Assembly: GCA_017615595.1 (NCBI GenBank) | Contig: JAFZZT010000029.1 | Span: forward strand, 1-43,460 | Reading direction: 5' to 3' | Length of the DNA stretch: 43,460 nt | DNA from: Bacteroidales bacterium | Lineage (GTDB): Bacteria; Bacteroidota; Bacteroidia; Bacteroidales; WCHB1-69 | Part shown: in pieces, positions 1,393-34,791 of the stretch | Position numbering within the stretch: position 1 is the stretch's first letter | How the letters are laid out: each line of letters begins with the position of its first letter | The notes under the pieces: generated by a model | What the model was told of the DNA's origin: nothing | The model's database searches: none | Seen by the model: the letters and a program-made list of their open reading frames with translations, nothing else | Made by a program: the position numbers and the translations under genes

Positions 1393-1409
1393 ATTGTTAA
1401 ATTGATTCT

Positions 1410-2156: not shown

Positions 2157-2544
2157 AACTTATTAGAAGGAATAAAGCGCTAAATCACAGCCTGCAAAAA
2201 TAATAAAAAAAAACGCTTCGCTTAAAAAAATAACTTTTTTTTATGGGCGATACAATAAAACAGACAATTCATCGTTTCGTTCATGGAAAAATTTTTTATG
2301 TCAAGAACTAGAATACATACCAATAGCAGTCATATCTATCTGATAGCCAGTACGCTATTGATTCTTCTTGCATCATTTTTCCTATATAGCAAAGACTTCA
2401 AATCTTTGATATTTTTCCAGGATGAGACGATTGTCTCCGCTGACAATTGCTCTTTTCCGACTGACCAAGATGATATGTATGGTATGGACTTCGGTTCATG
2501 CCATCTTTTTTATACTATTTTGACCCTAGAACACTCCTTGTATC
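2157..2544 (+). other. 388-nt intergenic region with a doubtful 111-codon ORF
   Basis: Apart from the minus-strand promoter at 2194-2202 this stretch is AT-rich, with A/T homopolymers near 2200-2245. A plus-strand reading frame from 2283 to 2618 would encode 111 residues with one hydrophobic segment (IYLIASTLLILLASFFLYS). It runs 74 nt into the Na/Pi symporter gene in another frame, has no -7 box before it and resembles nothing I recognise. It could be a small membrane protein, but chance is more likely. No clear TAnnTTTG element for the downstream gene was found either. Confidence 0.4.
2194..2202 (-). promoter_or_regulatory. Bacteroidetes -7 promoter element before glycosyltransferase/kamD
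   Basis: Minus-strand TATTTTTGC, an exact match to TAnnTTTGC, lies 37 nt upstream of the glycosyltransferase ATG at 2156. Confidence 0.7.
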
Positions 2545-4224: not shown

Positions 4225-4259
4225 CCGCAAACAGTGATTAGATCTGTTGCACGAAAGAA

Positions 4260-5654: not shown

Positions 5655-5675
5655 AGTTTTGATGGGGTCTAAAGG

Positions 5676-7145: not shown

Positions 7146-7167
7146 ATTGATAAAGTTATGGTTATTG

Positions 7168-7968
7168 TTATTCGTTAAGATATTTCCGTTCCTGTCGCTT
7201 CACGATCCAGACGCTCAGTTCGTAGAGAAGCCAGATGGGCACAGAGACGAGCATCAGGGTGAAGGCGTCTCCTGTCGGGGTGATCACTGCCGCCAGGATC
7301 ACGATGATGATGATGGCATGACGACGATAGCGCCGAAGCATATCTGCCGTGATGACTCCCATGCGAGCCAGGAAATAGGCCAAGATGGGTATCTCGAACA
7401 GCAGTCCCATGATCAAGCTCATCGACAAGATAGCCCCGATATAGGATGGCAGTGAGATCTGGTTGACCACCCCCTCGTAAACCTGGTAGCTGCCGAGAAA
7501 ACGGAAGGTGAAAGGGAAGATGATGAAGTAGTTGAGCAGAATGCCACAGAGAAAAAGCAGGATGGCACTCACCAGCACAGAGCCCAGATAGCGACGTTCG
7601 CGAGCATACAGCGCAGGCAACACAAAGCCATAGAGCTTATACACGATATAGGGTGACGCCAGCACCAGTCCTCCCCAGAAGGCCGCCTGCATGTGCACGA
7701 TGAACTGCGCCGCCAGCTCCACATTGATGAACGACACATTCATAGCATCCGGGCAGAGCGATGGCCACCGCAACCATTCTGACAAACGACATATCAAGCG
7801 GTATGAAATGAAATCTGAGGATGAAGGGGCAAAGAGAACGGTGAAGAGATACTTTTTCAGGGAAAAGAGCACGACAAAACAGACCGCCCACACTATCAAT
7901 GACCGGATGAGGACTGAGCGAAGCTCGTCAAGGTGGTCCCAGAAGGAAGGCGACGAGTCAGCGGCCAT
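7168..7968 (-). CDS. tatC: Sec-independent protein translocase subunit TatC
   Basis: The 266-residue polytopic receptor of the twin-arginine translocase, which binds Tat signal peptides in the inner membrane. The N-terminal FWDHLDELRSVLIRS matches the conserved F-x-HL-x-ELR cytoplasmic motif. Conserved FEIPILAYFLARMGVI and ITPTGDAFTLMLVSVPIWLLYELS follow. Six hydrophobic segments can be drawn. The ATG at 7968 immediately follows the tatA stop (7971-7969), implying coupled translation. Both downstream genes carry twin-arginine motifs. Confidence 0.96.
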   Translation of the reverse strand: MAADSSPSFWDHLDELRSVLIRSLIVWAVCFVVLFSLKKYLFTVLFAPSSSDFISYRLICRLSEWLRWPSLCPDAMNVSFINVELAAQFIVHMQAAFWGGLVLASPYIVYKLYGFVLPALYARERRYLGSVLVSAILLFLCGILLNYFIIFPFTFRFLGSYQVYEGVVNQISLPSYIGAILSMSLIMGLLFEIPILAYFLARMGVITADMLRRYRRHAIIIIVILAAVITPTGDAFTLMLVSVPIWLLYELSVWIVKRQERKYLNE

Positions 7969-8193
7969 TTATTCGGGATTGTCGGTGGGCTTGGACATCT
8001 CGTCCTGCTTTGCGGACGTTTCTTTCACATCATCCGCTGTCTTCTCCACCTCATTCATCCCCTCTTTAAAACTGCGGACTCCCTTGCCGAGGCCTTTCAT
8101 CAATTCAGGGATCTTCTTGCCGCCAAAAAGCAGCAGCACCAGAAGAACAATCACAATGATTTCCGTTGTCCCAATTCGTAATAGTGTCATCAT
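7969..8193 (-). CDS. tatA: Twin-arginine translocase pore subunit TatA/E
   Basis: A 74-residue TatA-type protein: a short N-terminal TM helix ([22 protein letters not shown]) with the FGGKKIPEL hinge, the amphipathic helix [15 protein letters not shown], then a charged tail. Translation could start at Met1 or Met2. No separate tatB is visible, so this is a minimal TatAC system in which TatA is probably bifunctional. It is first in the operon, about 50 nt downstream of a -7 element, with a strong hairpin in the leader. Confidence 0.95.
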
Positions 8194-8225
8194 ATTGTAC
8201 GATTTTTTAGATTAATGCCATACCC

Positions 8226-8245
8226 TCTCGTTGCCCGCAACGAGA
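8226..8245 (-). promoter_or_regulatory. 5'-terminal hairpin in the tat operon leader
   Basis: TCTCGTTG (8226-8233) and CAACGAGA (8238-8245) form an 8-bp perfect stem with a 4-nt loop. From the -7 box at 8250-8258, transcription should start at about 8243-8246, so the hairpin would sit at the extreme 5' end of the mRNA. A stabilising role is inference. Confidence 0.55.
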
Positions 8246-8249
8246 AAAG

Positions 8250-8258
8250 GCAAAAATA
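8250..8258 (-). promoter_or_regulatory. -7 promoter element of the tat operon
   Basis: Minus-strand TATTTTTGC, 56 nt upstream of the tatA start. Confidence 0.7.
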
Positions 8259-8372
8259 AAAAAAATCATGTTTGTATTAACTGAAAACTAAAAATAATTG
8301 AATAGCGACAGAAGTGTAAGCCATTAGTGCTGGCTTGGTCTAATCTTACTACATGAACTATGGTAGCCTACA

Positions 8373-9027
8373 TCATTTCACTCTGACTAGATCTTGCCAC
8401 ATATCGTAAAGCAGAGTACCCTTATAGGTGAAGTACTGGTAACCATTATGTTCATTCGTACTACCCTTTCTCTTGTGATATTCATTCATATATCTTGAAA
8501 GAGTCATTTGTTTCCCCTCCACCAATATTCCGTTACCCTGAACTGTAAATGTTTCTCCATTTTCGGTGTTTTCAAGCTTTGCTCCGTCAAGAATCCCTAA
8601 CAAATCCAAACGACAGCTGGGAAGTTTGCATTGAACGACATGTCCACTTTTGTCTTTAAATCTTTTACCATCATAACACATTTCCGTATCTTTGAACAAA
8701 GTCAATGTTTCCTTGTAAATGGACAGCACTTCCGAGAATGGAGCTTTTATCCATTCTGTTCCACCCCCCTTCACCTTTCAGTAGATACCCCTTTTCTTGG
8801 AACTTTCCCCCAAGCCATTTTTCAATTTTCTTATATTGGGTAGAGAAAATGATGATTCTATAATAAAATGGATAAGTCGGTGGCGTTGAATTCTTTTGAA
8901 TTCTTTTCCGTTCAAATGGATTGATGGTGACACCATATTTGTATGTATTCTCTCTATCTAAATAGGAATTCGTGAACAAGTAAACAATTCCTTTGTTATC
9001 TTTTGTCGTCCGTTTACTTCTGCTCAT
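8373..9027 (-). pseudogene. GIY-YIG (T5orf172/MUG113-like) nuclease-like gene with a frameshift
   Basis: Two overlapping minus-strand frames together make one protein of about 217 residues. The first (ATG 9027) reads KGIVYLFTNSYLDRENTYKY then GVTINPFERKR and IEKWLGGKFQEKGYLLKGE, resembling T5orf172-type GIY-YIG domains. At a run of six G (complement of 8764-8769) the sense continues in the next frame as GGGTEWIKAPFSEVLSIYK and runs to the stop at 8373. Its tail includes LVEGKQMTLSRYMNEYHKRK and YQYFTYKGTLLYDMW, like a small C-terminal module of restriction-associated proteins. Removing one G would join the frames. In the written sequence the first frame ends at 8671, losing the tail. The region is visibly AT-richer than its neighbours. 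A sequencing error, true decay or phase variation are all possible. Confidence 0.7.
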
Positions 9028-9669: not shown

Positions 9670-11271
9670 TTAATAGGGGAACTCTTCCGTAAAATTGGAA
9701 TTGGCATCCGGATTGGCGCCATCATCAGCCGGTTGGGAGGAACCGTTGATGGAAGACTCCACCACATCGAAGTTGGCATTCGGTCGGATAAGAGGCATCA
9801 GAGGCATATCGGCAGGTTTTGCTCCACCCTCTTCTCCCCCTTCAAAATATTCGGCATCGAGATCCAGGAATTTGGTGTACTGGGCCTGGAACCGCACGCG
9901 CAGAGCACCTGTGCTGCCGTGACGGTTCTTCTCGAACATGATCTCCGCCAAGCCATGTGACGGCGTGTTGTCCTCAAAAACATCCAACTTATAGTACTCT
10001 GGACGATAGATGAAGAGCACCATATCGGCATCCTGCTCGATAGCACCGGACTCACGAAGGTCTGAAAGCTGGGGACGCTTGGAGGTGGCACGGGTCTCGG
10101 GCTGACGGGACAGCTGAGACAATGCGATGACCGGCACATTCAGATCCTTGGCCAGGGCTTTCAACGAACGGGAGATGTAGCTGATCTCCTGCTCGCGGTT
10201 ACCACCCTTGGAGCTGTCGGAACCGACCGTCATCAACTGCAGATAGTCAACCACAATCATCTGGATATCATACTGGTGTTTCAACCGGCGGCACTTGGCA
10301 CGCAAGTCGAAAATAGAGATGGCGGGTGTATCGTCAATGATCAACTTGGAAGTTTCCAATTTACCGATGCTGTCCATGAGCTTAATCCACTCATCATCAC
10401 TCAAATCACCTTTCGCAATCTTCTCTGCATTGATACCGGATTCAAGAGCGAAGAGACGCTGCGCCAGCTGGTTGGAGGACATTTCCAAGGAGAAGAAAGC
10501 GACAGGCTTGTCGTACTGGATGGCAGCATTACGGGCCACTGACAACACGAAGGAGGTCTTACCCATACCGGGACGGGCAGCCAGGATGATGAGGTCGGTC
10601 TTTTGCCATCCGCCCGTCTTCTGGTCGATGGCGCGGATACCGGAAGGAACATCGTGCATATCGGAACCTGCATTGCGCAACTCATTGAGTTCCTTCAAGG
10701 TAGATTGCACTACCTGATGTAAGGGTTTACTATCTCTTTTGAAGTTTTGTTCAATGATGCTGAAGATCTTCGTCTCAGCAACATCCAACAGATCCAACAC
10801 ATCATTTGACTCATCGTATGCATCCTCGATAATGGAGTTGCAATTGCGGATCAGCTCTCTCAGCACATATTTCTCCATCACGATACGGGCGTGGTATTGG
10901 ATGTTGGCGGATGAGGTGATACGGTTAGTCAAAGAGGCCAAATAGGCAGCGCCCCCGACCACATCCAACAATTTATCCTTACGGAGCTGATTGGTCACCG
11001 TCAACAGATCCACGGGCTGTTCGGCACGATAGAGCTCCTCTATGGCATGGTATATATGCTGATGTGCCTCCTTGTAGAACATCTGAAAGGTAAGGGTCCC
11101 CAAAATGACGCTGACAGACTCCGAATCAATCATCAATCCACCCAGCACAGCCTCCTCAAATTCGATGGCTTGAGGGGTCAGTTTGCCGGTTGTTCCCATT
11201 ACATTTTCAATTCGGTTAAAGGATGCAGGCCTCTGCATCTTGGCATTTTCAGATGTACGTTCTTTCTCCAT
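9670..11271 (-). CDS. dnaB: Replicative DNA helicase DnaB
   Basis: The hexameric fork helicase (533 residues from this start). The N-terminal primase-interacting domain begins near AIEFEEAVLGGLMID. The RecA-like domain has Walker A ARPGMGKTSF, Walker B IVVDYLQLM, and the motif HGSTGALRVRF near the C-terminus. A low-complexity acidic/proline tail of about 55 residues follows. The frame is open further upstream, but the -7 box TACATTTGC at 11331-11339 places transcription start around 11325, and the only longer start (a TTG at 11334) would overlap that box. ATG at 11271 (MEKERTSENAK) is therefore chosen. Confidence 0.96.
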   Translation of the reverse strand: MEKERTSENAKMQRPASFNRIENVMGTTGKLTPQAIEFEEAVLGGLMIDSESVSVILGTLTFQMFYKEAHQHIYHAIEELYRAEQPVDLLTVTNQLRKDKLLDVVGGAAYLASLTNRITSSANIQYHARIVMEKYVLRELIRNCNSIIEDAYDESNDVLDLLDVAETKIFSIIEQNFKRDSKPLHQVVQSTLKELNELRNAGSDMHDVPSGIRAIDQKTGGWQKTDLIILAARPGMGKTSFVLSVARNAAIQYDKPVAFFSLEMSSNQLAQRLFALESGINAEKIAKGDLSDDEWIKLMDSIGKLETSKLIIDDTPAISIFDLRAKCRRLKHQYDIQMIVVDYLQLMTVGSDSSKGGNREQEISYISRSLKALAKDLNVPVIALSQLSRQPETRATSKRPQLSDLRESGAIEQDADMVLFIYRPEYYKLDVFEDNTPSHGLAEIMFEKNRHGSTGALRVRFQAQYTKFLDLDAEYFEGGEEGGAKPADMPLMPLIRPNANFDVVESSINGSSQPADDGANPDANSNFTEEFPY

Positions 11272-11330
11272 AGATAAAAATCTGTTCTTTTGACAATTAA
11301 ATAAAATACGGATGGCTTGTTTTCCGGACG

Positions 11331-11339
11331 GCAAATGTA
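11331..11339 (-). promoter_or_regulatory. -7 promoter element of dnaB
   Basis: Minus-strand TACATTTGC, 59 nt upstream of the chosen dnaB ATG; it excludes longer start choices. Confidence 0.65.
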
Positions 11340-11365
11340 TATAATTTTTGAAACACGCCGCCCTT

Positions 11366-12430
11366 TTACCGCAATTTTATTTTCTGTCCCAACGACAAAA
11401 TGCTATTCTCCTTGATATGGTTGATCTTACAGAGTTTGGCCACGGTGGTGTGATAGCGTTTCGCGATCGAATAGAGAGTGTCGCCTTTCTTGACCACATG
11501 CACGGCCGGCGTACCTTTGGAGCTGGGTTTGGTTGTGGTTTTGGCAGGCGTGGTGTTGGAAGTCGCCGACGTTGTCTTGACCGTATCGGGAGTGGTTTCC
11601 GCAACAGTCGTCACCTCGCCGCTTCGGTTATGGTTGACGACAGTAATCTTGTTGGCGGCGCGGTCGATATTCTGGTAGGCGGCATTCATATCCGTCACGG
11701 TGATGGAGATATCCTTGTTCACACTCCTGTTCTGTCTGTTGTGGCTCAGCAGCCAGCGGTAGGTGTCGGGGAGGTAGAACATCTTGGCCAGTTGAGAGTG
11801 GTTGATGCCTTTGAAGCGGTCGAAGCGCAGCATATTGGTGGGGCCGCAAGCCTTCATGGCCGCCACGATATTCTCCGACTGGCTGATGGGCACAGCGTTG
11901 TCGGCAGTGCCGTGGATGATCCAGAGGGGCAGCTTGTTAAGACCGCAGAACTCCCTGCGGGAACTGCCGCCGCACAGGGCCATCGCGGCCGAGAACTTGT
12001 CTGGATAGGTAGCCGCCACCTCGAACGTACCATAGCCACCGAGACTCATGCCCACGATGGAAATGCGGTTCGTGTCCATGCTGTAGTTGGCCTGCACATA
12101 CTCCACCACCTTCAACACCTTGTGGGCATTCCAGGGACCACCGGGGTTCTGCGGGGCGATGATCAACGCGTTGATGTCGCGGCCCATGGAGATGGCGTCC
12201 AGACATCCGTACTTGCGCACGCGGCTCAGATCCGTGCCGCACAGACTATGTCCATGCAGGAACACAATCACAGGCATGGTATCCTGATTCTCCACGTATG
12301 TATCGGGCACCGACACCCAGAAGTTGTATCCATCATTGATGACACCGCGATAGGCGTGAAAGGTATAGTTCTGTTGTGAAAACAGCGCAAAAGGAACTAA
12401 AACGAGTAATATCGTCCAAATTTTTCTCAT
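11366..12430 (-). CDS. Exported alpha/beta-hydrolase (esterase-like) with C-terminal LysM domain
   Basis: A 354-residue secreted protein. A signal peptide (MRKIWTILLVLVPFALFSQQ) leads into an esterase/polyhydroxybutyrate-depolymerase-like fold: oxyanion region VIVFLHGHS, nucleophile elbow GMSLGGYG (Ser129), HGTADNAVP (Asp177) and GINHSQ (His211). A Thr/Ser/Pro-rich linker (about 265-307) joins a LysM module from about residue 310 (HVVKKGDTLYSIAKRYHTT to the end). LysM normally binds peptidoglycan or chitin-type GlcNAc chains, so the esterase may act at the cell wall or on a glycan; this is inference. It lies 32 nt downstream of the MORN gene and is probably co-transcribed with it. Confidence 0.87.
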   Translation of the reverse strand: MRKIWTILLVLVPFALFSQQNYTFHAYRGVINDGYNFWVSVPDTYVENQDTMPVIVFLHGHSLCGTDLSRVRKYGCLDAISMGRDINALIIAPQNPGGPWNAHKVLKVVEYVQANYSMDTNRISIVGMSLGGYGTFEVAATYPDKFSAAMALCGGSSRREFCGLNKLPLWIIHGTADNAVPISQSENIVAAMKACGPTNMLRFDRFKGINHSQLAKMFYLPDTYRWLLSHNRQNRSVNKDISITVTDMNAAYQNIDRAANKITVVNHNRSGEVTTVAETTPDTVKTTSATSNTTPAKTTTKPSSKGTPAVHVVKKGDTLYSIAKRYHTTVAKLCKINHIKENSILSLGQKIKLR

Positions 12431-12462
12431 AAAAAGTCTTTTTTTCGAAGCTGGCAGATGTT

Positions 12463-13503
12463 TTACTCTTCCGGCATCGATGTGTTAAACAAATTCTTGA
12501 TCATCTTGGCATAGACACCTTCCGTGTAAACCTCCTCATCGGGAGCAGGCTTCAGTTTGACGATGACGGCATCTTCTTGACCTTTAATGGGTTTATAACC
12601 CACGATGGCTTCATTGGAGGCTATGATGCTGGGAGCTATTCGGGTGAAGACCATAAAGTCCGCCCACGTCTCCACATCCTCCAGCGTTTCATCGATCATC
12701 ATTTTCTTGCCATTATGCAGCACCACCAGAGTGCTCTGATCATTATATTTCATAAAATAGGCCACCAAGTCCTGATTGAGTTTCTGACTCGCCCCCATTC
12801 TATAAAGGTAGATATAGTTCTTGGGCTCCTTGTCCTTCTCATAGTGAATGGTGCTACGGATCTTGCCGTTAGAATCATAATAATCCCAATCTCCTATCCG
12901 GTGACCGTTCAGCAGTTCTCCCGTTGAGGAAATCTTTCCAGAGGGGTAATAGGCTGTACAGCGGCCGTTCTGTTTCCCTTCGATATAGCGTTCTTCCAGA
13001 CTGACCTTTCCATCCTCGTAATAGGTTTTATGGACCCCATCCAGATGACCATTCAGATAATGGCGTTCTTCCAAAAGGATACCCGTATGGGCAGCGTAGG
13101 TCTTCCAGTCGCCATTGCGGACGCCCCTGCGATAGTTCTCCTCGGTGATCAGGACCCCCTGGTTGGAGTAATAGAGCCATTGGCCGTCCTTCAGCTGATC
13201 CACGAACATACCTTCGGAGGCTTTCTTGCCGTTGGGATGATACATGACGGTGCGCACCTTGTGGACTCCCTCCACGAATTCAGACTTGCTCTTCAACGTG
13301 CCATTGGTGTGATAGTAGGAGAAAACTCCGTAAGGCACATCATTGCGGAACTGTCCCTCGTAGGCCAGCTTGCCCTTTTCATACTTGCGCCACACGCCCT
13401 GTTTGCGGCCGGAGGCATCCCGTTTGTTGATGCCAGCGGTATCCACCTGGGCATACAAAGTAATTGAGCATAAGGATAATATGATAAGCAGCAAATTTCT
13501 CAT
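12463..13503 (-). CDS. Exported MORN-repeat protein
   Basis: A 346-residue protein with a signal peptide (MRNLLLIILSLCSITLYAQ) and about eight MORN_2-type repeats between residues 30 and 225, for example GVWRKYEKGKLAYEGQF, GVFSYYHTNGTLKSKSEF and GDWDYYDSNGKIRSTIHYE. The C-terminal 120 residues are not repetitive. Such proteins are often labelled YwqK-family antitoxin by automatic pipelines, but no toxin gene is nearby and the signal peptide points to the envelope. Function is unknown. It is transcribed divergently from dnaN and is first in an operon with the LysM esterase. Confidence 0.85.
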   Translation of the reverse strand: MRNLLLIILSLCSITLYAQVDTAGINKRDASGRKQGVWRKYEKGKLAYEGQFRNDVPYGVFSYYHTNGTLKSKSEFVEGVHKVRTVMYHPNGKKASEGMFVDQLKDGQWLYYSNQGVLITEENYRRGVRNGDWKTYAAHTGILLEERHYLNGHLDGVHKTYYEDGKVSLEERYIEGKQNGRCTAYYPSGKISSTGELLNGHRIGDWDYYDSNGKIRSTIHYEKDKEPKNYIYLYRMGASQKLNQDLVAYFMKYNDQSTLVVLHNGKKMMIDETLEDVETWADFMVFTRIAPSIIASNEAIVGYKPIKGQEDAVIVKLKPAPDEEVYTEGVYAKMIKNLFNTSMPEE

Positions 13504-13523
13504 AGATCAACAATTTCAAAAAC

Positions 13524-13532
13524 GCAAAAATA
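13524..13532 (-). promoter_or_regulatory. -7 promoter element of the MORN/esterase operon
   Basis: Minus-strand TATTTTTGC, 20 nt upstream of the MORN gene start. Confidence 0.65.
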
Positions 13533-13581
13533 GAAAATTATAGTATATGACTTATATTTTTTTTTAAGACGAAAAAAAGTA

Positions 13582-13590
13582 TATCTTTGC
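13582..13590 (+). promoter_or_regulatory. -7 promoter element of dnaN
   Basis: Plus-strand TATCTTTGC, 26 nt before the dnaN ATG. Confidence 0.75.
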
Positions 13591-13616
13591 ACTTTCATTT
13601 TTAAAACAGAAAAACT

Positions 13617-14744
13617 ATGAAGTTTATCATTTCTAGAAATGTGTTATTTCACAATCTAAGTGCCATCAGCGGCGTGCTTGGCTCCAACAATTCGCTGCCT
13701 ATTCTGGACAACTTTCTCTTCACCATCAAGGATGAGAAATTGTTTTTGATGGCCTCAGACATGGACTCCACCATGACTGCCGTCATAGATCTTGACAATG
13801 TTGACGGGGAAGGCAGTGTGGCTGTTCCGTCCAAGATTCTTTTGGACACCTTGAAGCTGATACCGGAAACGCCGATCGTTTTCGCTATAGACCAGGAAAA
13901 GAGCATTTTCAAGTTCACGGCGGCCAACGGAGAATATGACGCACCCTGTTTCAACGGGGATGAGTTCCCACGTCCCAACGAGATCAAGGATCCCCACTTC
14001 TTCGACATTCCTTCGGCCGTGCTGCACCGCGCCATCAGCAAGACGCTGTTCGCCACTGGCACTGACGAGCTCCGCCCGACCATGATGGGCGTCTTCTGCG
14101 AACTGTCAGAGGAGGGCATCTCCTTCGTCTCCACGGATGCGCACAAGCTGGTACGCTATGTCAACCGCTCCGTCAACAACGACGAGTACGTTTCCTTCAT
14201 CCTGCCCAAGAAACCGCTGGGACACCTGAAGAACATCCTGCCGGGCATCAACGAAGACATCCATGTGACCTACTCCCAGGAGACCAACCACATCTGCTTC
14301 AGCTTCGGCAACTTCACCCTCTACTCTTCTCTGAAGGAAGGTAAATACCCCAACTACGAGAGTGTGATCCCGAAGAACAACAAGAATGTGCTGACCATCT
14401 CCCGCGAGGAGTTCCTGAAATCCATCCGAAGAGTGGGTATCTTCTCCAACCAGTCCACCTTCCAGATCCGCATCTCCCTCTCCGAGTCCTCCACCAACAT
14501 CAAGGCGGAAGACATGGACTTCTCCAACAAGGCAGAGGAGAGCATCAACGGGGAGTACGCTGGCGAGCCTATGGAGATCGGTTTCAACGCCAAGTTCTTG
14601 AGCGAAATGCTGGGCAACATCGACACCGCAGAGATCCGTCTGGAGATGTCAACCCCGAAGAGCGCCGCATTGCTCTTCCCGGCTGAGGAAGACACCGAGA
14701 AGGAGTCACTCCTGATGCTCATCATGCCTGTGATGTTGAACTAA
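13617..14744 (+). CDS. dnaN: DNA polymerase III beta subunit (sliding clamp)
   Basis: The ring-shaped processivity clamp of the replicase (375 residues, normal length). It starts MKFIISRNVLFHNLSAISGVLGSNNSLPILDNFLF, the typical first clamp domain, and contains FVSTDAHKLVRY in domain 2 and the C-terminal LMLIMPVMLN, the usual end of Bacteroidetes clamps. It is not next to dnaA here; dnaB lies about 2.3 kb away on the other strand. The RNase P RNA begins only 9 nt after its stop, so transcription probably continues into it. Confidence 0.97.
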   Translation: MKFIISRNVLFHNLSAISGVLGSNNSLPILDNFLFTIKDEKLFLMASDMDSTMTAVIDLDNVDGEGSVAVPSKILLDTLKLIPETPIVFAIDQEKSIFKFTAANGEYDAPCFNGDEFPRPNEIKDPHFFDIPSAVLHRAISKTLFATGTDELRPTMMGVFCELSEEGISFVSTDAHKLVRYVNRSVNNDEYVSFILPKKPLGHLKNILPGINEDIHVTYSQETNHICFSFGNFTLYSSLKEGKYPNYESVIPKNNKNVLTISREEFLKSIRRVGIFSNQSTFQIRISLSESSTNIKAEDMDFSNKAEESINGEYAGEPMEIGFNAKFLSEMLGNIDTAEIRLEMSTPKSAALLFPAEEDTEKESLLMLIMPVMLN

Positions 14745-14753
14745 CAGACACAA

Positions 14754-15091
14754 AAGGGACCTCGTTGTCGCTGCCATCTTCGGATGGGAGAGGAAAGTCC
14801 GGGCAACACAGAGCACCATACTTCCTAACGGGAAGGCATCCTCCGGATGACAGACAGTGCCACAGAAAAGATACCGCCGGTGCAAACCGGTAAGGGTGAA
14901 ATCGCGAGGTAAGAGCTCACGCCGATGTTCAGTGATGACATTCGAGGGTAAACCTTATGGGTTGAAAGACCAAATAAACCGAGGCTTGAGGGTTGCTCGC
15001 CCGACTCGGAGGGTAGGTTGATGGAGACGCAAGGTGACTTGCGCCCTAGATAAATGACAACATAGTACAGAACCCGGCTTATAGGTTCCTT
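14754..15091 (+). ncRNA. rnpB: RNase P RNA (bacterial type A)
   Basis: The catalytic RNA that removes tRNA 5' leaders. The conserved 5' core GAGGAAAGTCCGGGC is at 14790-14804 and the 3' core ACAGAACCCGGCTTA at 15067-15081. The ends are set by helix P1: AAGGGACCT (14754-14762) pairs with AGGTTCCTT (15083-15091), with one G-U pair. The size of about 340 nt fits type A. No promoter fits in the 9-nt gap after dnaN, so it is either co-transcribed with dnaN and processed or started from inside dnaN. A strong terminator follows. Confidence 0.96.
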
Positions 15092-26557: not shown

Positions 26558-26619
26558 CACGAAACGCTCCCTTATCTCTCTTTTGTGACAAGCCTATTGT
26601 CACCCATACGGATTTTATG

Positions 26620-26628
26620 TATTTTTGC
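26620..26628 (+). promoter_or_regulatory. -7 promoter element abutting the KDRWG repeat gene
   Basis: Plus-strand TATTTTTGC ends 4 nt before the first ATG (26633). With a start site about 5-7 nt downstream, the transcript would be leaderless or begin translation at the in-frame ATG at 26642. Confidence 0.6.
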
Positions 26629-26632
26629 CGAC

Positions 26633-27064
26633 ATGAAAAAAATGATACTACTTACGGGCATCATGATCGTCCTCGTCATGTCTGGCAACGCCCAGACCGT
26701 CTATCAGAAAGACCGGTGGGGTGCGAAGCTATACTATTTTGAAGATAACACCATGCGGTTGAAGGATCGCTGGGGAGATCGGCTGCTGTGGTTTGACGAG
26801 AGCACGCGGCAGGTGCGACAGAAAGACCGCTGGGGCCAGTCCCTGATTTTCATTGACGGCCAGACGGTGAGACAGAAAGACCGCTGGGGCGAGGCATTGC
26901 TCTATCTGGACGGTCAGACCATCCGGCAGAAGGACCGTTGGGGCACGCCGCTCTACTATCTGGACGGACAGACGCTACGCCTGAAAGACCGCTGGGGCGC
27001 ACCCGTCTATTGGTTCGACTTCACCCCGGAATGGTGGCAGATCGCGTGTGTAGTGCTGATGTAA
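26633..27064 (+). CDS. Small exported protein of KDRWG tandem repeats, function unknown
   Basis: A 143-residue protein: signal peptide ending VMSGNAQ (residue 21), then six repeats each starting KDRWG at residues 26, 44, 64, 82, 100 and 118 (spacings 18, 20, 18, 18, 18). The consensus is KDRWGxxLYYLDGQTxRQ. The alternating hydrophobic/aromatic pattern with a DGQT turn suggests stacked beta-hairpins. It ends in a short hydrophobic segment (EWWQIACVVLM). I do not recognise a named family; it differs from WG beta repeats, which have a longer period. It follows the T9SS cargo gene but has its own promoter, and nothing indicates a function beyond envelope location. The longer frame from 26585 is rejected because it begins upstream of the promoter. 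Confidence 0.75.
   Translation: MKKMILLTGIMIVLVMSGNAQTVYQKDRWGAKLYYFEDNTMRLKDRWGDRLLWFDESTRQVRQKDRWGQSLIFIDGQTVRQKDRWGEALLYLDGQTIRQKDRWGTPLYYLDGQTLRLKDRWGAPVYWFDFTPEWWQIACVVLM
26708..27022 (+). repeat. Six 54-60-bp coding repeats (KDRWG units)
   Basis: Near-identical AAAGACCGCTGGGG-type cores recur every 54 bp, once 60 bp. Confidence 0.85.
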
Positions 27065-27112: not shown

Positions 27113-27121
27113 TATTTTTGC
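27113..27121 (+). promoter_or_regulatory. -7 promoter element of the exonuclease-helicase gene
   Basis: Plus-strand TATTTTTGC, 19 nt before the ATG at 27141; the AT-rich gene thus has a native-type promoter. Confidence 0.7.
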
Positions 27122-27140: not shown

Positions 27141-30100
27141 ATGGCTTTACGCGACCTGCTAAATCGGGCAACATCATACGAACTTGCCTTTATTGATATT
27201 GAGGCTAGTTCAGATGGGAAGAAAATATTGGATTTTGGAGCTCTTCAAAATTCCGGAAAAGAATTTCATCAGTCTTCCAAAAACGGCTTCCTCTTTTTTA
27301 TTAAAGGCGCTGAATATCTTTGCGGACACAATATCATCCATCATGATTTGGAGGTTTTAAAAGAGAATTCTCTAAATCACAAGAAAAGGATAGACACTCT
27401 GTACTTGTCGCCACTTCTTTTCCCAAAACGGCCCTATCACAAGCTACTTAAGGACGACAAGCTACAGACAGAAGAGCTAAACAATCCTTTGAATGACTGC
27501 AAAAAAGCAAAGGAATTGTTTGAGGAAGAAATCAACACTTTCAAGTCTCTTTCACCATATTTACAGAAAGTTTTTGTCAATTTGCTTTATCCTTTTGTGG
27601 AATTTAAAGACTTTTTCAACTATTTAGGAGTCGTTCCTGCCCAAATTGACTTAGAGAAACTGATTTCCTCTTTTTTTGAAGAAAGAATATGCAGACATGC
27701 TCCATTGTCTAAATTCATAGAGCACAGACCAATAGAATTAGCTTACGCATTGGCCCTTATCAACACCAATGACAACAAGTCCATCACACCGCCTTGGCTG
27801 TTGTACAACTTTCCTGCCATTGAGAATATCATGCAACAACTTTGCAGCACACCATGTCATGAAGCAGATTGTTCATACTGTCGAAGCAAACTCAATATTC
27901 ACAAAGGGTTGGAAGATATTTTCGGGTATTCGGAGTTTAGAACATTTGATGGCGAGCCAATGCAAGAGCGGGCGGTTCAAGCCGCCATTGATGGGAAATC
28001 ATTGCTGACAGTTTTCCCGACTGGCGGTGGAAAGTCACTCACTTTCCAACTCCCTGCCCTTATGTCTGGCAAGGCAGTCCATGGACTCACTGTTATCATC
28101 TCGCCTTTACAGTCTCTGATGAAAGACCAGGTGGACAACTTGTTAGAGAAAAACATCACTGAAGCTGTCACCATCAACGGACTTTTAGATCCAATTGCAC
28201 GGGCAAACGCTTTTGAACGCGTGGCTGATGGCAGTGCTACCCTACTCTATATTTCCCCTGAAATGCTGCGCTCAAAGACTATAGAAAAGCTGCTGCTATC
28301 ACGCAATGTAATCCGCTTTGTCATTGATGAAGCGCACTGCTTTTCTTCTTGGGGGCAGGATTTCCGCGTGGACTATCTCTACATTGGTGATTTCATAAAG
28401 CAACTGCAAGAAAAGAAAAGACTAGAAGCACCCATCCCTGTTTCCTGCTTTACCGCCACTGCCAAGCAGAAAGTCATTTCCGACATAAGAGACTATTTCA
28501 AACGCACCTTAGACATCGAGTTGCAATTATTTGCTTCCTCTGCCGATCGACAAAATCTGAAATATCAAGTGTATCATGCAGAAACAGAAGAAGAAAAATA
28601 CAATTTGATGCGTAAGCTTCTGATTGCTAATACCACACCCACTATCGTTTACGTCTCACGCACTAGAAAAACCATTGATCTTGCACAGAAACTGACCCGA
28701 GATGGTTTCCCCGCACTACCATTTAATGGAAAAATGGAAGCCAGCGATAAAATTGCGAACCAGAACGCATTTATCAACAACGAAGTGAAAGTCATGGTAG
28801 CCACATCCGCTTTCGGCATGGGAGTGGACAAAAAAGATGTGGGCATGGTTATCCACTACGACATTTCCGATTCTCTTGAAAACTATGTCCAAGAGGCTGG
28901 TCGTGCAGGACGCGATCCTGAAATGGAAGCCAAATGCTATGTATTGTACAGCGACCACGATCTTGACAAACACTTCATCCTCCTAAATCAAACAAAATTA
29001 AGTATTAGTGAGATACAACAAGTTTGGTCCGCCATAAAACGACTTACAAAGCAGTACAAGTCTGTCCAGTGTTCAGCATTAGAGATTGCCAGAGAAGCTG
29101 GCTGGAACGATGAAGTGACAGATATAGAAACCCGCGTCCGCACAGCGGTTTCCGCCCTTGAGCAAGCAGGTTATATTAAAAGAGGTAACAATGCACCCCA
29201 TGTTTTTGCGACCGGTATAACCGTGAAAAACATGGATGAAGCGAGAAAACGCATTGAAAGTTCAAATCTTTTTGATGACAAAAATCGGAAAAATGCCATT
29301 CGCATCATCAAATCATTGATTTCAAGCAAAAGCATCGCAAATGCGACACAGGGCCACGACGAAGATGCGGAGTCGCGCGTGGATTACCTAGCAGACATTC
29401 TCGGCATGAGCAAGGAACAAGTCATCAGCGCCGTCGGCCTAATGCGACAAGAGAAAATCCTTGCCGACACACGAGACATGAGCGCCTATCTACCTCCAAC
29501 AGACAACGAGCAAAAAACCATAAAAACCATAGAAAGATTCGCCAAGCTGGAACAATTTCTTTTGAAAACCATTTCACAATGCGACAAAGAAATATCTTAC
29601 AAAACATTAAACGAGGAAGCAAAGAAATTTGGACTTCACTCTACTGTAAAAGATATCCACACCTTATTGAACTTTCTCTCTATAAAATCCTACATTCACA
29701 GAAATGAACACATCAGGAGCAATAGTGTTCTTACAACTCTGCAACAAACAGTTGAACAGCTCAACCTAATATTAGACACCAGATTAAGTCTCTGTCGTTT
29801 TATCATTAGCGAATTGTATCGAATCAAACTGACGCAAAACAAGTCGTCTGATACCGAAGGACTTGTATTGTTTTCTCTCAACGAATTATTGAAATCTTAC
29901 AACGAACAACCCTTCGATTTACTCTCCCAAAACAAAACCGTTCAAATAAAAGAGATGGAAGACGCCCTACTCTATCTGTCAAAAATCGGCGCCTTGAAGT
30001 TGGAAGGTGGATTTCTTGTGATATACAACGCTATGCAAATTCGCAGAATCTCCGATTTGAAATACCGTTACAAGTTGGAAGATTATCGCATGTTGGACGA

Positions 30101-31979
30101 GTTCTACAAACAGAAAATCAGACAGATCCACATTGTTGGGGAATACGCCAACCTCATGGTGCAGGATTACAATGCAGCATTACAATTCGTACGAGACTAT
30201 TTTCAGATGGATCATAAGAAATTCATCGCCACCTATTTCAAAGGAGAGCGAGCTGTTGAGATCGAGAAGAACATCACTCCCGAAAAATACCGTCAACTCT
30301 TTGGAGAACTATCCGAGACTCAACGAAAAATCACCACTGACAATATATCCAAGCAGATTGTTGTGGCTGCAGGCCCTGGAAGCGGGAAAACACGTGTTCT
30401 GGTCCACAAACTGGCCTCCTTACTACTATTAGAGGATGTGAAGCATGAGCAATTATTGATGCTCACCTTCTCCAGAGCCGCAGCAACAGAATTCAAAGAA
30501 CGACTGATCAACCTCATAGGCAACTCAGCATATTTTGTCGAAATCAAAACATTTCACTCTTACAGCTTTGACTTATTGGGAGAAACCGGATCTCTGGAAG
30601 ATTCCGAAAAGGTGGTAGAACGAGCAACCCAAATGATTGAAGATGGACAAGTTGAGTCCAGCAAAATCAGCAAGACTGTCCTTGTTATTGATGAAGCCCA
30701 AGACATGGATGCGCATGAGTATGCATTAGTCAAAGCTATGATGAAACAGAATGAGGAGATGCGCGTGATTGCCGTTGGCGATGACGACCAAAACATTTAC
30801 AGTTTCCGTGGTTCCGATGCCAAATATATGCGGTCTCTCATTAGGGAATTTAATGCTGTAAAATACGAATTGACTGACAACTATCGAAGTTGCCAATCCA
30901 TCGTTCGTTTTGCAGAATCTTTTGTCAAGAAGTTACCCAAGCGCATGAAGACAGCATCGTGCTCTGCTGTCAATCAAGAATCTGGAACTGTAATAATCAC
31001 TGAATACCTTAGCGACAATCTCCTATTCCCCACTTGTCGGGACATAAAAAGGACATATAATGGTGAGAAAGCATGTCTGCTAACTAGCACCAACGATGAA
31101 GCGGCTCAAGCGACAGGGCTTTTAAACAAACTGGGAATACGAGCCCGTCTGATCCAGTCCACTGACGGATTTCATTTTTACAATCTCATGGAAATTAGAT
31201 ATTTCTTGAAACAGATTGAGAATAAAATCGCCTCGCCCCTCATCAGCAACGAATTGTGGGATGAGGCGAAACAAAAGACAATAGATAAATACAAAGACAG
31301 TTCCTGTTTGGAGTATGTCATTAATTTCTTTTCCACTTTTGAAAAGACTAACAAGATAAAGTATCGTAGCGATTTAAATGAATTTTTGTTTGAATCAAAA
31401 CTGGAAGACTTTTGCGGAGATGGCGATGCGACAATCTTTGTTTCTACAATCCACAAGGCAAAAGGTCGGGAATTTGATACCGTTTACATGTTGTTGAATC
31501 ATCAAGAGGCAGTCAGAGAAGAAGATATCCGAAAATTATATGTGGGTCTTACTCGTGCTAAAAACTCTCTTCACATTCATTATAACTCTTCATTTTTCAA
31601 TAATATTGGCAAGGATTCCATCACATATCATTATGACATGGAACAATATCCCGAGCCCGATGAAATCGCACTACAACTATCCATGCATGATGTCAATTTG
31701 GATTTTTTCAAAAGGATAAAGAATTCAATCGTTCAACTCCGTAGCGGTATGGCCTTGCATTATGACAATGGATTTCTTAGGACATCATCAGGAGAGAAAG
31801 TAGCATATTTGTCAAAATCAAAGCGCGAAGAACTTTTGGAGTGGAAAAATAAAGACTATTTTGTTTCATCTGCAAAAGTCAATTGTATTGTAGCCTGGAA
31901 AGGAGAAAATGACGAAAAAGAGTGTTGGGTGATACTTCCCGATTTACTGTTGAAAAAAACTGCCAACCATGATGACTAG
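27141..31979 (+). CDS. DEDD-exonuclease / RecQ-type helicase / UvrD-type helicase fusion
   Basis: A 1612-residue multidomain DNA-processing protein. Residues 14-130 resemble a DnaQ-like 3'-5' exonuclease: FIDIEAS (D19, E21), CGHNIIHHD (D69) and NNPLNDCKKA (D119); the usual catalytic His five residues before the last Asp is Asn114. C235, C239, C244 and C247 could bind zinc. A RecQ-type SF2 helicase follows: FPTGGGKS (292-299), FVIDEAHCFSSWGQDFR (about 394-410), YVQEAGRAGRDP (about 580), then a winged-helix-like segment (about 630-700). After a helical middle, a UvrD/PcrA-type SF1 helicase spans about 1060-1500: AAGPGSGKTR, VIDEAQDMD, VGDDDQNIYSFRGS, STIHKAKGREFD, YVGLTRAK. The gene is AT-rich compared with both sides, suggesting transfer. 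Repair or anti-phage/anti-plasmid function is inference. Confidence 0.9.
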   Translation: MALRDLLNRATSYELAFIDIEASSDGKKILDFGALQNSGKEFHQSSKNGFLFFIKGAEYLCGHNIIHHDLEVLKENSLNHKKRIDTLYLSPLLFPKRPYHKLLKDDKLQTEELNNPLNDCKKAKELFEEEINTFKSLSPYLQKVFVNLLYPFVEFKDFFNYLGVVPAQIDLEKLISSFFEERICRHAPLSKFIEHRPIELAYALALINTNDNKSITPPWLLYNFPAIENIMQQLCSTPCHEADCSYCRSKLNIHKGLEDIFGYSEFRTFDGEPMQERAVQAAIDGKSLLTVFPTGGGKSLTFQLPALMSGKAVHGLTVIISPLQSLMKDQVDNLLEKNITEAVTINGLLDPIARANAFERVADGSATLLYISPEMLRSKTIEKLLLSRNVIRFVIDEAHCFSSWGQDFRVDYLYIGDFIKQLQEKKRLEAPIPVSCFTATAKQKVISDIRDYFKRTLDIELQLFASSADRQNLKYQVYHAETEEEKYNLMRKLLIANTTPTIVYVSRTRKTIDLAQKLTRDGFPALPFNGKMEASDKIANQNAFINNEVKVMVATSAFGMGVDKKDVGMVIHYDISDSLENYVQEAGRAGRDPEMEAKCYVLYSDHDLDKHFILLNQTKLSISEIQQVWSAIKRLTKQYKSVQCSALEIAREAGWNDEVTDIETRVRTAVSALEQAGYIKRGNNAPHVFATGITVKNMDEARKRIESSNLFDDKNRKNAIRIIKSLISSKSIANATQGHDEDAESRVDYLADILGMSKEQVISAVGLMRQEKILADTRDMSAYLPPTDNEQKTIKTIERFAKLEQFLLKTISQCDKEISYKTLNEEAKKFGLHSTVKDIHTLLNFLSIKSYIHRNEHIRSNSVLTTLQQTVEQLNLILDTRLSLCRFIISELYRIKLTQNKSSDTEGLVLFSLNELLKSYNEQPFDLLSQNKTVQIKEMEDALLYLSKIGALKLEGGFLVIYNAMQIRRISDLKYRYKLEDYRMLDEFYKQKIRQIHIVGEYANLMVQDYNAALQFVRDYFQMDHKKFIATYFKGERAVEIEKNITPEKYRQLFGELSETQRKITTDNISKQIVVAAGPGSGKTRVLVHKLASLLLLEDVKHEQLLMLTFSRAAATEFKERLINLIGNSAYFVEIKTFHSYSFDLLGETGSLEDSEKVVERATQMIEDGQVESSKISKTVLVIDEAQDMDAHEYALVKAMMKQNEEMRVIAVGDDDQNIYSFRGSDAKYMRSLIREFNAVKYELTDNYRSCQSIVRFAESFVKKLPKRMKTASCSAVNQESGTVIITEYLSDNLLFPTCRDIKRTYNGEKACLLTSTNDEAAQATGLLNKLGIRARLIQSTDGFHFYNLMEIRYFLKQIENKIASPLISNELWDEAKQKTIDKYKDSSCLEYVINFFSTFEKTNKIKYRSDLNEFLFESKLEDFCGDGDATIFVSTIHKAKGREFDTVYMLLNHQEAVREEDIRKLYVGLTRAKNSLHIHYNSSFFNNIGKDSITYHYDMEQYPEPDEIALQLSMHDVNLDFFKRIKNSIVQLRSGMALHYDNGFLRTSSGEKVAYLSKSKREELLEWKNKDYFVSSAKVNCIVAWKGENDEKECWVILPDLLLKKTANHDD

Positions 31980-32082: not shown

Positions 32083-34791
32083 ATGAAAAAGTTTTTCGTT
32101 CTCCTTATAATCAGTGTTCTGACCATCTTCCAGGCGCAGGCCGTCCTCAAAGAGAAGGACTTGGCGCAGACGCTCGGCGTGTTGCGTTCCGAGTTGGAGC
32201 TTGCCTACAACGAGCAGAAGGCCATGATGGCGCGCTATGAGAAGCGCTACGGCGAACAGCACGCACGCCTCATCCGCATGATGCAGGGCAGCAACCAGAT
32301 CGCCCTGATGCTCTACTCACAGAGCACCGACTTCACCTTCGACATGGCATACGCCTGCCAGGCGGCCACCGAGCAGTACCGCAACCTCAAGCAGTACCAC
32401 GCCCCCTACGACAAGATGATCTTGCGAATCAAAACGGAGATTGAACGTTATGACGCCTTAATCAAGACACTGGAGAACCTGCCTCCCCGCCTCATGCCCA
32501 ACGGCGAGATAGCCATGCTGCCCGACTCTATCCGCGAGATGATACCCAAGAGAGTCCTGGACACGGCGGCCAAGAGTCTCTACATCCTGGATGTGCAAGG
32601 TCTGGAGGACCGTGAGGCGTGCTTGGAGTACGCCACCGCCCTGCGCGACAACTATGTCACCATGCTGGAGAACATCGAGCTGGACCAAGAATACTACGAG
32701 CGCGTCACCAACCGCGCCAAAGAGCTCAACAAATTCGCCATGGCCAAGTATGACGGCATCCAGAAGAACATCTTCCAGAATGGCGGCGACAACTACTTCA
32801 AGACCCTCAAGCGCTTCAGATGGTACTATTTCGCAGCCAAGAAGGATGTGGACGACCGATACAAGCCTTTCACCCGCAAATCAGAATGGCGCGGACCTGT
32901 CATCTACGGCATCAGCATCTTCATGATCGTCTATATCCTCTTCGCCAGCATCCTCAGCTATGTCATCATGCGCTGGATCCTGCCAAAGAAATGGCGCATC
33001 CATTTCAAGGAGAACAACAAACGGCCCATCGTCACCATCGCCTGCGGCGTGGCCATCTTCGCCATCTCCATCACCATCGCCCGCTTCTTCGTCAAACAGA
33101 ACTTCGTGCTGATGGCCATCAATCTGATGACCTTCTTCGCCTGGCTCACGGAGGTGATCCTCGTCTCCCTGCTGATCCGCCTGGACGACAAGCAGATCCG
33201 GGCCGGCGTGCGCTCCTACATGCCGTTCGTCCTCATGGCCTTCATCGTGATTGCTTTCCGTATCATCCTGATACCCAACAATCTCGTCAACCTGATATAC
33301 CCGCCGGTGATGCTGGCCTTCACCATCTGGCAGTTCTTCGTGATGAAACGCAAGATCACCAAGCTGCCCGACAGCGACATGGTGTACACAGTCATCTCGC
33401 TTATCGTCATGATCATCTCCTGTGTGGCTTCCTGGCTTGGCTTCGTGCTGCTGGCCGTACAGATTATGATCTGGTGGATGATTCAGCTGGCGGCCATCCA
33501 GACCATCACCTGTTTCTACGACCTGGCCAAGATGTACGAACAGCGCCATCTGACCCGCAAGATCGCCCAAGACAAAGGGGAAATCATCAAAGACAAAAAC
33601 GAGTTAAAGAAATATTTCAAGAAGATACAGCCCAAGATGGTTAAGGGCGAATACATCGGCCGGACCTGGTTCTACGATTTCCTGTTCAAGGCGTTGCTAC
33701 CCATTTTGGCCATCCTCTCCATCCCGGCAAGTGTCTATTGGGCCACCAGCATCTTCGAGATGTCGTCCATCTGCCGCAAGATCTTCCTCTTCGTCTTCCT
33801 GAACAAGCCCGGCATCATCCAGCTGTCTCTCTTCAAGATCTGTCTGGTACTGGAGCTCTACTTCCTGTTCCGCTATCTGAACTATGCCATCAAGGCATTT
33901 TACAAGATGTTGCGGAAGCGCCGCAAAAAAGACACCCTGAGCCAAGGAAGCGGCAATGCCACCCTGGTCAACAACATCATCGGCATCCTGGTCTGGGGCT
34001 TCTACGTCATCGCAGCGCTGATGATCTTCGAGGTCTCCAGCAGCGGCATCTCCATCGTGATGGCCGGCTTGGCCACCGGTCTTGGTTTTGCCATGAAAGA
34101 CCTCTTGGAGAACTTCGTCTATGGCATCATCCTCATGACGGGCCGTCTGCGCGTGGGCGACTACATCGAATGTGACGGCATCCAAGGCAAGGTGGAGAGC
34201 ATCAACTACCAGAGCACGCAGATCGTCACGCTGGACGGCAGTGTGATCACCTTCCAGAATGCGACACTCTTCAGCAAGAACTTCAAAAACCTCACCCGCA
34301 ACCATGGCTATGTGCTGGTCAAAGTCCCTGTCGGGGTGGCCTACGGAGTGAATGTAGAGAAGGTTCGGAACATGCTGCTCAAGAGTCTGGAGCCGCTCAT
34401 CGCCAAGAACGAGGCCGGTAAATATGCGGTGGACAACAAGCAGGGCTTCAAGGTGGTATTCGACGACTTCGGCGACAGCAGTGTCGATCTGTTCGTCACC
34501 TGCTGGATCTTGGTCGAAGAGAAGGCCAGCGTGGTGGCCCGCATCAAGGAGATCATCTACAACACGTTGAACAAGAACCATATCGAGATACCGTTCCCGC
34601 AGCAAGACATCTACATCCGCCGTATGGAGATGCCCTCCACGAATGGCAAGAAAGCGGAAACGGAGCTTCCCGAAGCGGAAGTCGTGGAGTCGGACATGCC
34701 AACGACCGAGGAAAAACCTGCGAAGCCGAAGAAGAGAGGACGCCGAAAATCGGTGAAAAAGAGCGGGAATGACGAGGTAAAAGAGGCGTAA
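32083..34791 (+). CDS. Large MscS-family mechanosensitive channel (MscK/YnaI-like layout)
   Basis: A 902-residue inner-membrane channel that would open under membrane tension and release solutes. Signal peptide (KKFFVLLIISVLTIFQAQA), then a periplasmic helical domain to about residue 265. About ten hydrophobic segments follow between 270 and 680. The MscS core runs from about 623: pore-lining helix AGLATGLGFAMKDLLENFVYG, then the beta domain GRLRVGDYIECDGIQGKVE and IVTLDGSVITFQNATLFSK. The C-terminal vestibule domain is followed by a charged Lys/Glu/Pro tail (about 855-902, ending near KKRGRRKSVKKSGNDEVKEA). It is a single gene between the helicase and gdhA. Confidence in family is high; the gating stimulus is inferred. 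Confidence 0.92.
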   Translation: MKKFFVLLIISVLTIFQAQAVLKEKDLAQTLGVLRSELELAYNEQKAMMARYEKRYGEQHARLIRMMQGSNQIALMLYSQSTDFTFDMAYACQAATEQYRNLKQYHAPYDKMILRIKTEIERYDALIKTLENLPPRLMPNGEIAMLPDSIREMIPKRVLDTAAKSLYILDVQGLEDREACLEYATALRDNYVTMLENIELDQEYYERVTNRAKELNKFAMAKYDGIQKNIFQNGGDNYFKTLKRFRWYYFAAKKDVDDRYKPFTRKSEWRGPVIYGISIFMIVYILFASILSYVIMRWILPKKWRIHFKENNKRPIVTIACGVAIFAISITIARFFVKQNFVLMAINLMTFFAWLTEVILVSLLIRLDDKQIRAGVRSYMPFVLMAFIVIAFRIILIPNNLVNLIYPPVMLAFTIWQFFVMKRKITKLPDSDMVYTVISLIVMIISCVASWLGFVLLAVQIMIWWMIQLAAIQTITCFYDLAKMYEQRHLTRKIAQDKGEIIKDKNELKKYFKKIQPKMVKGEYIGRTWFYDFLFKALLPILAILSIPASVYWATSIFEMSSICRKIFLFVFLNKPGIIQLSLFKICLVLELYFLFRYLNYAIKAFYKMLRKRRKKDTLSQGSGNATLVNNIIGILVWGFYVIAALMIFEVSSSGISIVMAGLATGLGFAMKDLLENFVYGIILMTGRLRVGDYIECDGIQGKVESINYQSTQIVTLDGSVITFQNATLFSKNFKNLTRNHGYVLVKVPVGVAYGVNVEKVRNMLLKSLEPLIAKNEAGKYAVDNKQGFKVVFDDFGDSSVDLFVTCWILVEEKASVVARIKEIIYNTLNKNHIEIPFPQQDIYIRRMEMPSTNGKKAETELPEAEVVESDMPTTEEKPAKPKKRGRRKSVKKSGNDEVKEA

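Follow-up and report, generated by a model that had tools for sequence, protein, structure and literature searches.

The window, i.e., the whole stretch of 43,460 nucleotides that was analysed, comes from a Bacteroidales genome and carries a single gene with three predicted DNA-processing domains. The reading frame starts with ATG, has zero internal stops, and encodes a putative DEDD exonuclease, a RecQ-type helicase core of superfamily 2 (SF2), and a UvrD-type helicase core of superfamily 1 (SF1) in one chain (Table 1). The whole chain is named by none of the Pfam, NCBIfam, or PADLOC matches listed. The gene is AT-richer than its surroundings, as had been noted from the sequence, with a GC content of 41.2% vs 52.6% for the rest of the window. 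The promoter box described earlier is also present; TATTTTTG fits the TAnnTTTG consensus, and we take it to be a Bacteroidota -7 promoter element. The term "AT-rich island" did not hold up, as the AT-rich insert is made up of one gene.

Table 1. Features of the fusion gene and its surroundings (window positions).
Feature	Position	Strand	Details
Exonuclease-RecQ-UvrD fusion gene	27141..31979	+	single gene, 1612 aa
Acquired segment	27069..32026	.	gene with ~70 bp upstream and 47 bp downstream; blastn of empty site, junction sequences
Promoter box TATTTTTG	27113..27120	+	presumed Bacteroidota-type -7 element
Putative DEDD (DnaQ-like) exonuclease domain, residues ~12-235	27174..27845	+	D19, E21, D69, D119; Asn114 for His
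CxxxxCxxC motif (C239, C244, C247), exonuclease-RecQ linker	27855..27881	+	conservation counts
Predicted RecQ-type SF2 core, residues 255-612	27903..28976	+	GGGKS, DEAHC, TAT, QEAGRAGRD
Middle region, residues 613-1050, putative winged-helix domains	28977..30290	+	profile matches
Predicted UvrD/PcrA-type SF1 core, residues 1056-1485	30306..31595	+	AGPGSGKT, DEAQD, GDDDQ, NYRS, HKAKGRE, YVGLTRA
C-terminal tail, residues 1486-1612	31596..31976	+	poor conservation in profile
Left neighbour, QKDRWG-repeat protein	26585..27064	+	adjoins MscS at empty site
Right neighbour, MscS-type channel	32083..34791	+	Pfam; sister-genome comparison

Conservation was assessed on 100 loci (L001-L020 and L050-L129), 90 of which have an uninterrupted full-length reading frame and form the homologue set. 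Eighty of the loci are the best-scoring 80 of 581 found with the motif patterns AGPGSGKT and DEAHC. Conservation of these two motifs is thus partly by construction, since both were search patterns. The exonuclease residues lie outside the patterns and were counted independently of locus finding. All residue counts are indexed on the ungapped L001 reading frame. The fusion chain is under purifying selection in all of its domains. Whole-chain dN/dS is 0.05-0.09 in seven of eight pairs, with the L001/L002 pair saturated, and the exonuclease domain has values of 0.08-0.17 in all eight. The C-terminal tail has the highest dN/dS of five regions in 5 of the 7 computable pairs.

The exonuclease domain (residues 12-235) has a DnaQ-like arrangement composed of D19-x-E21, GHN-x4-D69, and N114-x4-D119. 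The window copy has no Pfam match in this domain. When 45 homologues were searched, DNA_pol_B_exo1 was matched in 7 (best 5e-4) and RNase_T in 2 (best 1e-3). A profile of the domain weakly matches four solved chains named exodeoxyribonuclease III (E 8e-4 to 2e-3), the best of which is 9mrc at 8e-4. The four metal-binding acids D19, E21, D69, and D119 are kept in 89 of the 90 full-length homologues; L096 is without the N-terminal part, and D119 alone is kept in all 90. The GHN motif is conserved, and H100 is found in 88/90.

In DEDDh exonucleases, the catalytic His lies five positions ahead of the final Asp. In the fusion, this position (114) is an Asn in 89/90 homologues, and it aligns with the His of 9l8b and with that of a DnaQ-like exonuclease from L018. 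To our knowledge, no named DEDD subgroup has an Asn at the catalytic His position. The change of this fifth residue went unnoticed in the original prediction and could mean that nuclease activity is weak or absent. In the linker that follows, C239 is nearly invariant, and C244 and C247 are each found in 86/90 homologues; in Aliarcobacter and Nostoc copies, the linker cysteines have been lost or changed. They form a possible metal-binding knuckle between the exonuclease and RecQ domains.

The predicted RecQ core matches the Pfam families DEAD (2e-28) and Helicase_C (1e-21) over residues 273-591. It also reaches 277 bits against the NCBIfam recQ_fam model TIGR00614, whose cut-off is 219.8. Among 25 of the 35 matching NCBIfam families, all equivalog models score below their own cut-offs, including those of UvrD, PcrA, and Rep. 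The core is closest to the bacterial RecQ 4tmu (4e-88), with the WRN helicase domain further away (5e-68). No CxxC occurs in residues 590-1056 of the window protein, which hold four scattered cysteines. Because this zinc-binding cluster is missing, the domain is considered a RecQ-like core and not a canonical RecQ. A second RecQ-like reading frame is found elsewhere in the window's genome (G000:C43).

The middle region (residues 613-1050) matches HTH_Crp_2 in 10 of 45 members, and the window copy has a sub-threshold match there to wHTH-PRTase_assc (0.0045). The UvrD part matches UvrD-helicase PF00580 (2.6e-32, 113 bits) and UvrD_C PF13361 (6e-21, 75.7 bits) over residues 1058-1483. Both the N and C domains carry all motifs of a UvrD/PcrA SF1 helicase. 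The closest structures are those of UvrD/PcrA (1.5e-72), and the Gabija protein GajB (8jqb) is matched at 5e-36. The Walker lysines, the DEAH/DExQ acids, and the glutamines and arginines of motifs III and VI are kept in 90/90 homologues. Some positions next to catalytic ones are more variable, e.g., G296 (84/90), S299 (87/90), and D592 (83/90). A PADLOC scan of the whole chain gives partial matches among 25 of 58 matching families. On the RecQ part these are mainly to DpdF, but also to PsyrT and a Cas3-like model; on the UvrD part they are to GajB and a reverse transcriptase (RT)-associated helicase.

The domain folds assigned here come from sequence profiles. The Pfam and NCBIfam helicase matches and the retained exonuclease acids confirm the three-domain chain of the original prediction, and its Walker motifs are indeed intact. 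Loss of catalytic residues in most homologues, which would have counted against that prediction, was not seen.

The fusion gene is absent from the same site in close relatives. In the sister genome G005 (empty site L022), 13 bp replace 4958 bp of the window, as determined by blastn and from the junctions. The QKDRWG-repeat gene directly adjoins the MscS gene there, and the MscS is 90% identical to that of the window. In the sister G024, MscS lies beside an fn3 gene with no RecQ gene between them. Both sisters have the same 447-aa gene (98-99.6% identical) after MscS. A second pair of occupied and empty sites is made up of G028, where the gene lies in 4913 bp, and G018, where 39 bp are found instead; the flanks are 85-89% identical. 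The inserts of both pairs (G000/G005 and G028/G018) hold only the gene and short flanks.

No direct or inverted repeats of at least 14 bp were found at the two ends of the window insert, and Phage_integrase was matched in 2 of 130 genes near the loci. Carriage by a transposon or integron was rejected on these two observations. Site comparison alone leaves gain vs loss undirected, but the deviant GC content of the window copy favours gain there. AT-richness had been taken as a sign of mobility. This applies to the window copy but not to the family. Across the 74 loci compared, the gene differs from its flanks by a median of -0.2 GC points; 20 copies lie more than 3 points below their flanks and 19 more than 3 points above, and AT-richness was discarded as a family signature.

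Genome G012 holds an intact copy and, in addition, a degenerate duplicate (L130; G012:C99:112500-121500). The latter is missing ~260 residues and has a frame change between the exonuclease-RecQ and UvrD parts. This split copy is a decayed duplicate and not a two-gene form of the architecture. On the Nostoc sp. ATCC 53789 plasmid NZ_CP046704.1 (99522-104932), a homologue is apparently interrupted by a transposase annotated as IS1634-family. The QKDRWG-repeat protein has a 54-nt repeat unit and no Pfam match, and is found in 25/32 genus genomes searched. Its gene adjoins the fusion in the window's genome, lies near it in G017 and G028, and is found elsewhere in other genomes.

Of the other genomes examined, at least 18 of 35 within the genus and at least 3 of 24 in the order's other families hold a copy of the fusion or fragments of one. 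An evenly sampled set of 197 further Bacteroidota genomes, all at least 90% complete, yielded full-length copies in at least 10. These counts are lower bounds, with two candidates scored per phylum genome and a maximum of eight per genus or order genome. Universal presence at a conserved core locus would have spoken against a mobile accessory gene. Presence is instead patchy and tied to no single locus, and together with the two empty sites this bears out the accessory behaviour that had been proposed.

The best 80 of 581 loci come from Bacteroidota, Bacillota, Pseudomonadota, Campylobacterota, and five more phyla. The latter (Thermodesulfobacteriota, Acidobacteriota, Spirochaetota, Nitrospinota, and Aminicenantes) are represented by one contig each, and such metagenome contigs may be misbinned. 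Plasmid searches add Cyanobacteria, so that relatives span about ten phyla. Nineteen plasmid records match the Pseudomonas copy at E<=1e-100, and in 16 the match extends over 80% or more of that copy. No E. coli copy was found by distant blastn with part of L129. In a FastTree phylogeny, the 90 proteins cluster by phylum, with 9 changes vs 28 after shuffling; 21 of the rows have no group assigned. Copies from Bacteroidales branch within those of Bacillota, and the window's genus has at least three lineages, one of which branches with a copy belonging to a different family.

Carriage as phage cargo was considered and rejected. Of 50,697 phage records, not one covers as much as 80% of the query, and none matches the Pseudomonas homologue at E<=1e-80. 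In IMG/VR, long copies are found at 14 of the best 80 of 226 relatives (L135-L148), on contigs that are filed as viral; some are cut by contig ends.

Several copies lie next to known defence genes. Type I restriction-modification (RM) operons are found beside the copies at L015, L062, L078, and L106. This corresponds to 4 of 88 loci (1.25 Mb of flanks) vs 0.52 operons expected (Poisson P 0.002), a value that is indicative because three of the four positives (L015, L062, and L078) had themselves supplied the BLAST queries and no type I RM turned up in 13 IMG/VR loci that were searched as well. The background is made up of 85 hand-counted N6_Mtase matches (E<=1e-40) in 204.7 Mb of Bacteroidota only, and the 88 loci are mixed. 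Against the laxest background, all 147 N6_Mtase matches, P is 0.013.

Further examples come from ten neighbour proteins that were chosen for their defence-like look and searched for families (G092, L136, L142, and L143). In G092 (L215), the fusion gene is immediately followed, in the same orientation, by HsdM-HsdS-GmrSD-GmrSD-AlbA_2 (268-8778), with DUF7834 in one GmrSD; HsdR was not seen in this stretch. The fusion follows a type III mod/res pair in L142, which is cut by the contig end, and lies two reading frames before an Eco57I/ResIII protein in L136. In L143, a contig filed as viral, it precedes RhuM-family and TOTE primase-helicase-PLD proteins (10870-14827). A type I-D CRISPR locus is located ~4 kb from the copy on a Thiothrix plasmid (L018).

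Among the genes that flank 70 loci, no family recurs at more than 6 of them. The two largest clusters (6 and 4 loci) resemble common multi-copy families, and a conserved operon partner was rejected. Four of five extra phylum loci (G150, G084, G171, and G233) are ordinary-looking when their reading frames are judged by eye. PADLOC models (E<=1e-40) match ~10 of 130 near genes vs 4 of 130 far genes (Fisher P 0.17), where the totals of 10 and 4 assume that overlapping models match the same proteins. The genes were drawn at random with a fixed seed from 227 near and 272 far candidates, and reading frames >900 aa were omitted. A strong defence-island signal over all loci was thus not found. Co-occurrence with defence loci, as anticipated in the original prediction, is seen for type I RM above a rough background but not in the near/far comparison or as a shared neighbour. 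The fusion behaves as a solitary single-gene factor that is only sometimes found in defence loci, which is also compatible with repair. By association, a defence role is likely.

Gabija is proposed to block the circularisation of DNA ends that are not occupied by RecBCD (PMC12407980). Like the fusion, it is composed of a UvrD-like SF1 helicase and a nuclease, and GajB is matched by both structure and PADLOC models. Unlike the fusion, the Gabija nuclease GajA is of the OLD family and on a separate chain (PMC10822852), and no RecQ is part of the system. The fusion chain has no OLD/TOPRIM Pfam match, and no recurrent neighbour takes the place of GajA. Hna is a single-chain 3'-5' ssDNA exonuclease that is activated by phage SSB and, like the fusion, joins a helicase to a nuclease (PMC13381803). 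Its SF2 helicase is followed by a C-terminal PD-(D/E)XK domain, with neither an SF1 motor nor a DEDD domain. The C-terminal part of the fusion is instead UvrD, with no PD-(D/E)XK Pfam match. Another nuclease-helicase, Hachiman, is a sensor of DNA damage (PMC12278908).

RqlH/PsyrT and DpdF share a RecQ core with the fusion, possibly followed by a winged helix. RqlH is different in having 698 aa, a PRTase domain, and the partner RqlI (PMC4670107). The fusion has no PRTase Pfam match at 1e-3 and no shared partner, and its score against the DpdF equivalog model is 211.7 vs the required 550 bits. DinG of the Bacillus subtilis type has a DEDD exonuclease fused to an SF2 helicase (PMC12525004), as in the fusion, but the helicase is XPD-type and the only motor.

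The human RecQ helicase WRN possesses a 3'-5' exonuclease N-terminal to its RecQ helicase, as does the fusion, but no UvrD. The WRN exonuclease is of the DEDDy type. When solved chains are searched with the fusion exonuclease profile, 8 match at E values up to 10 and WRN is not one of them; the resemblance between the two proteins is probably convergent.

RecBCD and AddAB resemble the fusion in their helicase-nuclease logic and in having a UvrD-family motor. RecBCD uses two motors of opposite polarity and a PD-(D/E)XK nuclease. The fusion has a DEDD domain, RecQ as the second motor, and one gene, and its motors are probably of equal polarity, unlike RecB and RecD. No PD-(D/E)XK Pfam match is found in the chain at 1e-3, and PDDEXK_1 genes are located elsewhere in the window's genome. 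PDDEXK_1 proteins, judged from domain and length to be AddB/AddA, occur in 27/27 genus genomes searched, with or without the fusion; those of G018 and G033, both without it, are weak matches. Since they are present in carriers and non-carriers alike, the fusion looks additional to the standard end-processing enzyme, and a role as substitute for AddAB/RecBCD was rejected. The likeness to RecBCD/AddAB drawn in the original prediction stands for the general logic but not for the nuclease fold or, probably, the motor polarity, and AddAB-like genes are present anyway. Going by its predicted domains, the fusion is a single-chain helicase-nuclease that belongs to none of the defence or repair systems tested.

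Helicases of the RecQ and UvrD families translocate 3' to 5', and DEDD exonucleases digest DNA 3' to 5'. On balance, we favour the reading of a one-gene nuclease-helicase that is accessory and moves horizontally, and that most likely defends against phages, plasmids, or other invading DNA. The mechanism that we infer covers the polarity, the substrate, the rule that separates self from non-self, and defence itself. The RecQ and UvrD motors would engage DNA at 3' single-stranded tails or at branches, and both would move 3' to 5', as is typical of their families. From the motors, the 3' strand would pass into the N-terminal DEDD exonuclease for 3' to 5' digestion. Invading linear genomes would thereby lose the ends on which their circularisation, recombination, or start of replication depends. 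The chromosome would be spared because it has no free ends, or because its ends are covered by AddAB/RecBCD-like complexes. A bolder version, offered tentatively, is a widespread one-gene immune family in which two 3'-5' motors drive an unrecognised "DEDD-N" exonuclease. The Asn would hold the nuclease at a low rate until it is activated at the 3' ends of invading DNA, either by the motors or by a phage factor (e.g., SSB, as in the case of Hna).

The fusion may instead be an accessory DNA-repair or replication-fork enzyme, i.e., a bacterial WRN counterpart with a UvrD motor that is kept for repair and not for defence. The position of the exonuclease N-terminal to RecQ and the match of the helicase part to WRN are consistent with this, as are the lack of a widely shared neighbour and the fact that many copies lie in ordinary-looking regions. 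Exonuclease-helicase fusions of the DinG type have a role in replication stress (PMC12525004). A repair enzyme would fit less well with a gene that is patchy, inserted singly, and decayed in one duplicate. Carriers and non-carriers alike have PDDEXK_1 (AddB/AddA-like) proteins, the window's genome has another RecQ-like reading frame, and RM co-location is above background. We consider repair rather improbable as the main role. The exonuclease domain could also be catalytically dead and act as a 3'-end sensor, leaving only a double helicase, which would fit either defence or repair. The His to Asn change, aligned to the His of known exonucleases, points in this direction, but the retained metal-ligand acids and the purifying selection on the domain do not, as dead domains usually lose the acids; we regard this as unlikely.

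A selfish or plasmid-maintenance factor, or a toxin-like helicase as in RqlH/PsyrT, would benefit mainly its own spread. Single-gene mobility and plasmid copies would be expected of such an element, and the weak wHTH-PRTase_assc match and the PsyrT and DpdF matches of the RecQ part recall these systems. Set against this are the missing PRTase match and partner gene, strong purifying selection on all catalytic domains, and no long repeats at the insertion. This is a very unlikely explanation. The favoured reading remains that of a mobile defence factor.

The fusion was expected to be annotated only as RecQ, and the plasmid copies agree. All eight that were opened, chosen among annotated matches, are named "RecQ family ATP-dependent DNA helicase", and six of the 20 plasmid matches listed carry no annotation. 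The architecture is undescribed in open-access titles and abstract openings on RecQ/UvrD/exonuclease fusions; subscription papers and most preprints lie outside this set, and a prior description is possible. A paper on polyvalent proteins, in the portion available, places UvrD beside SWI2/SNF2 helicases and not in an exonuclease-RecQ-UvrD fusion (PMC5512222). In line with the original prediction, no functional study was found in the open-access literature searched. The fusion is real, intact, mobile, and apparently unstudied in that literature.

A nuclease joined to two motors of different superfamilies, found in about ten phyla and annotated as RecQ only in the copies opened, would represent a large blind spot in the annotation of defence and repair genes. 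The family-wide change of His to Asn offers a test of whether a DEDD exonuclease works, or is held back, without the usual general base. If the fusion is a repair enzyme, it would be a WRN-like architecture of probably independent bacterial origin. If it is defensive, it would provide a one-gene system in which to study how nuclease-helicases distinguish the ends of invading DNA from those of the host.
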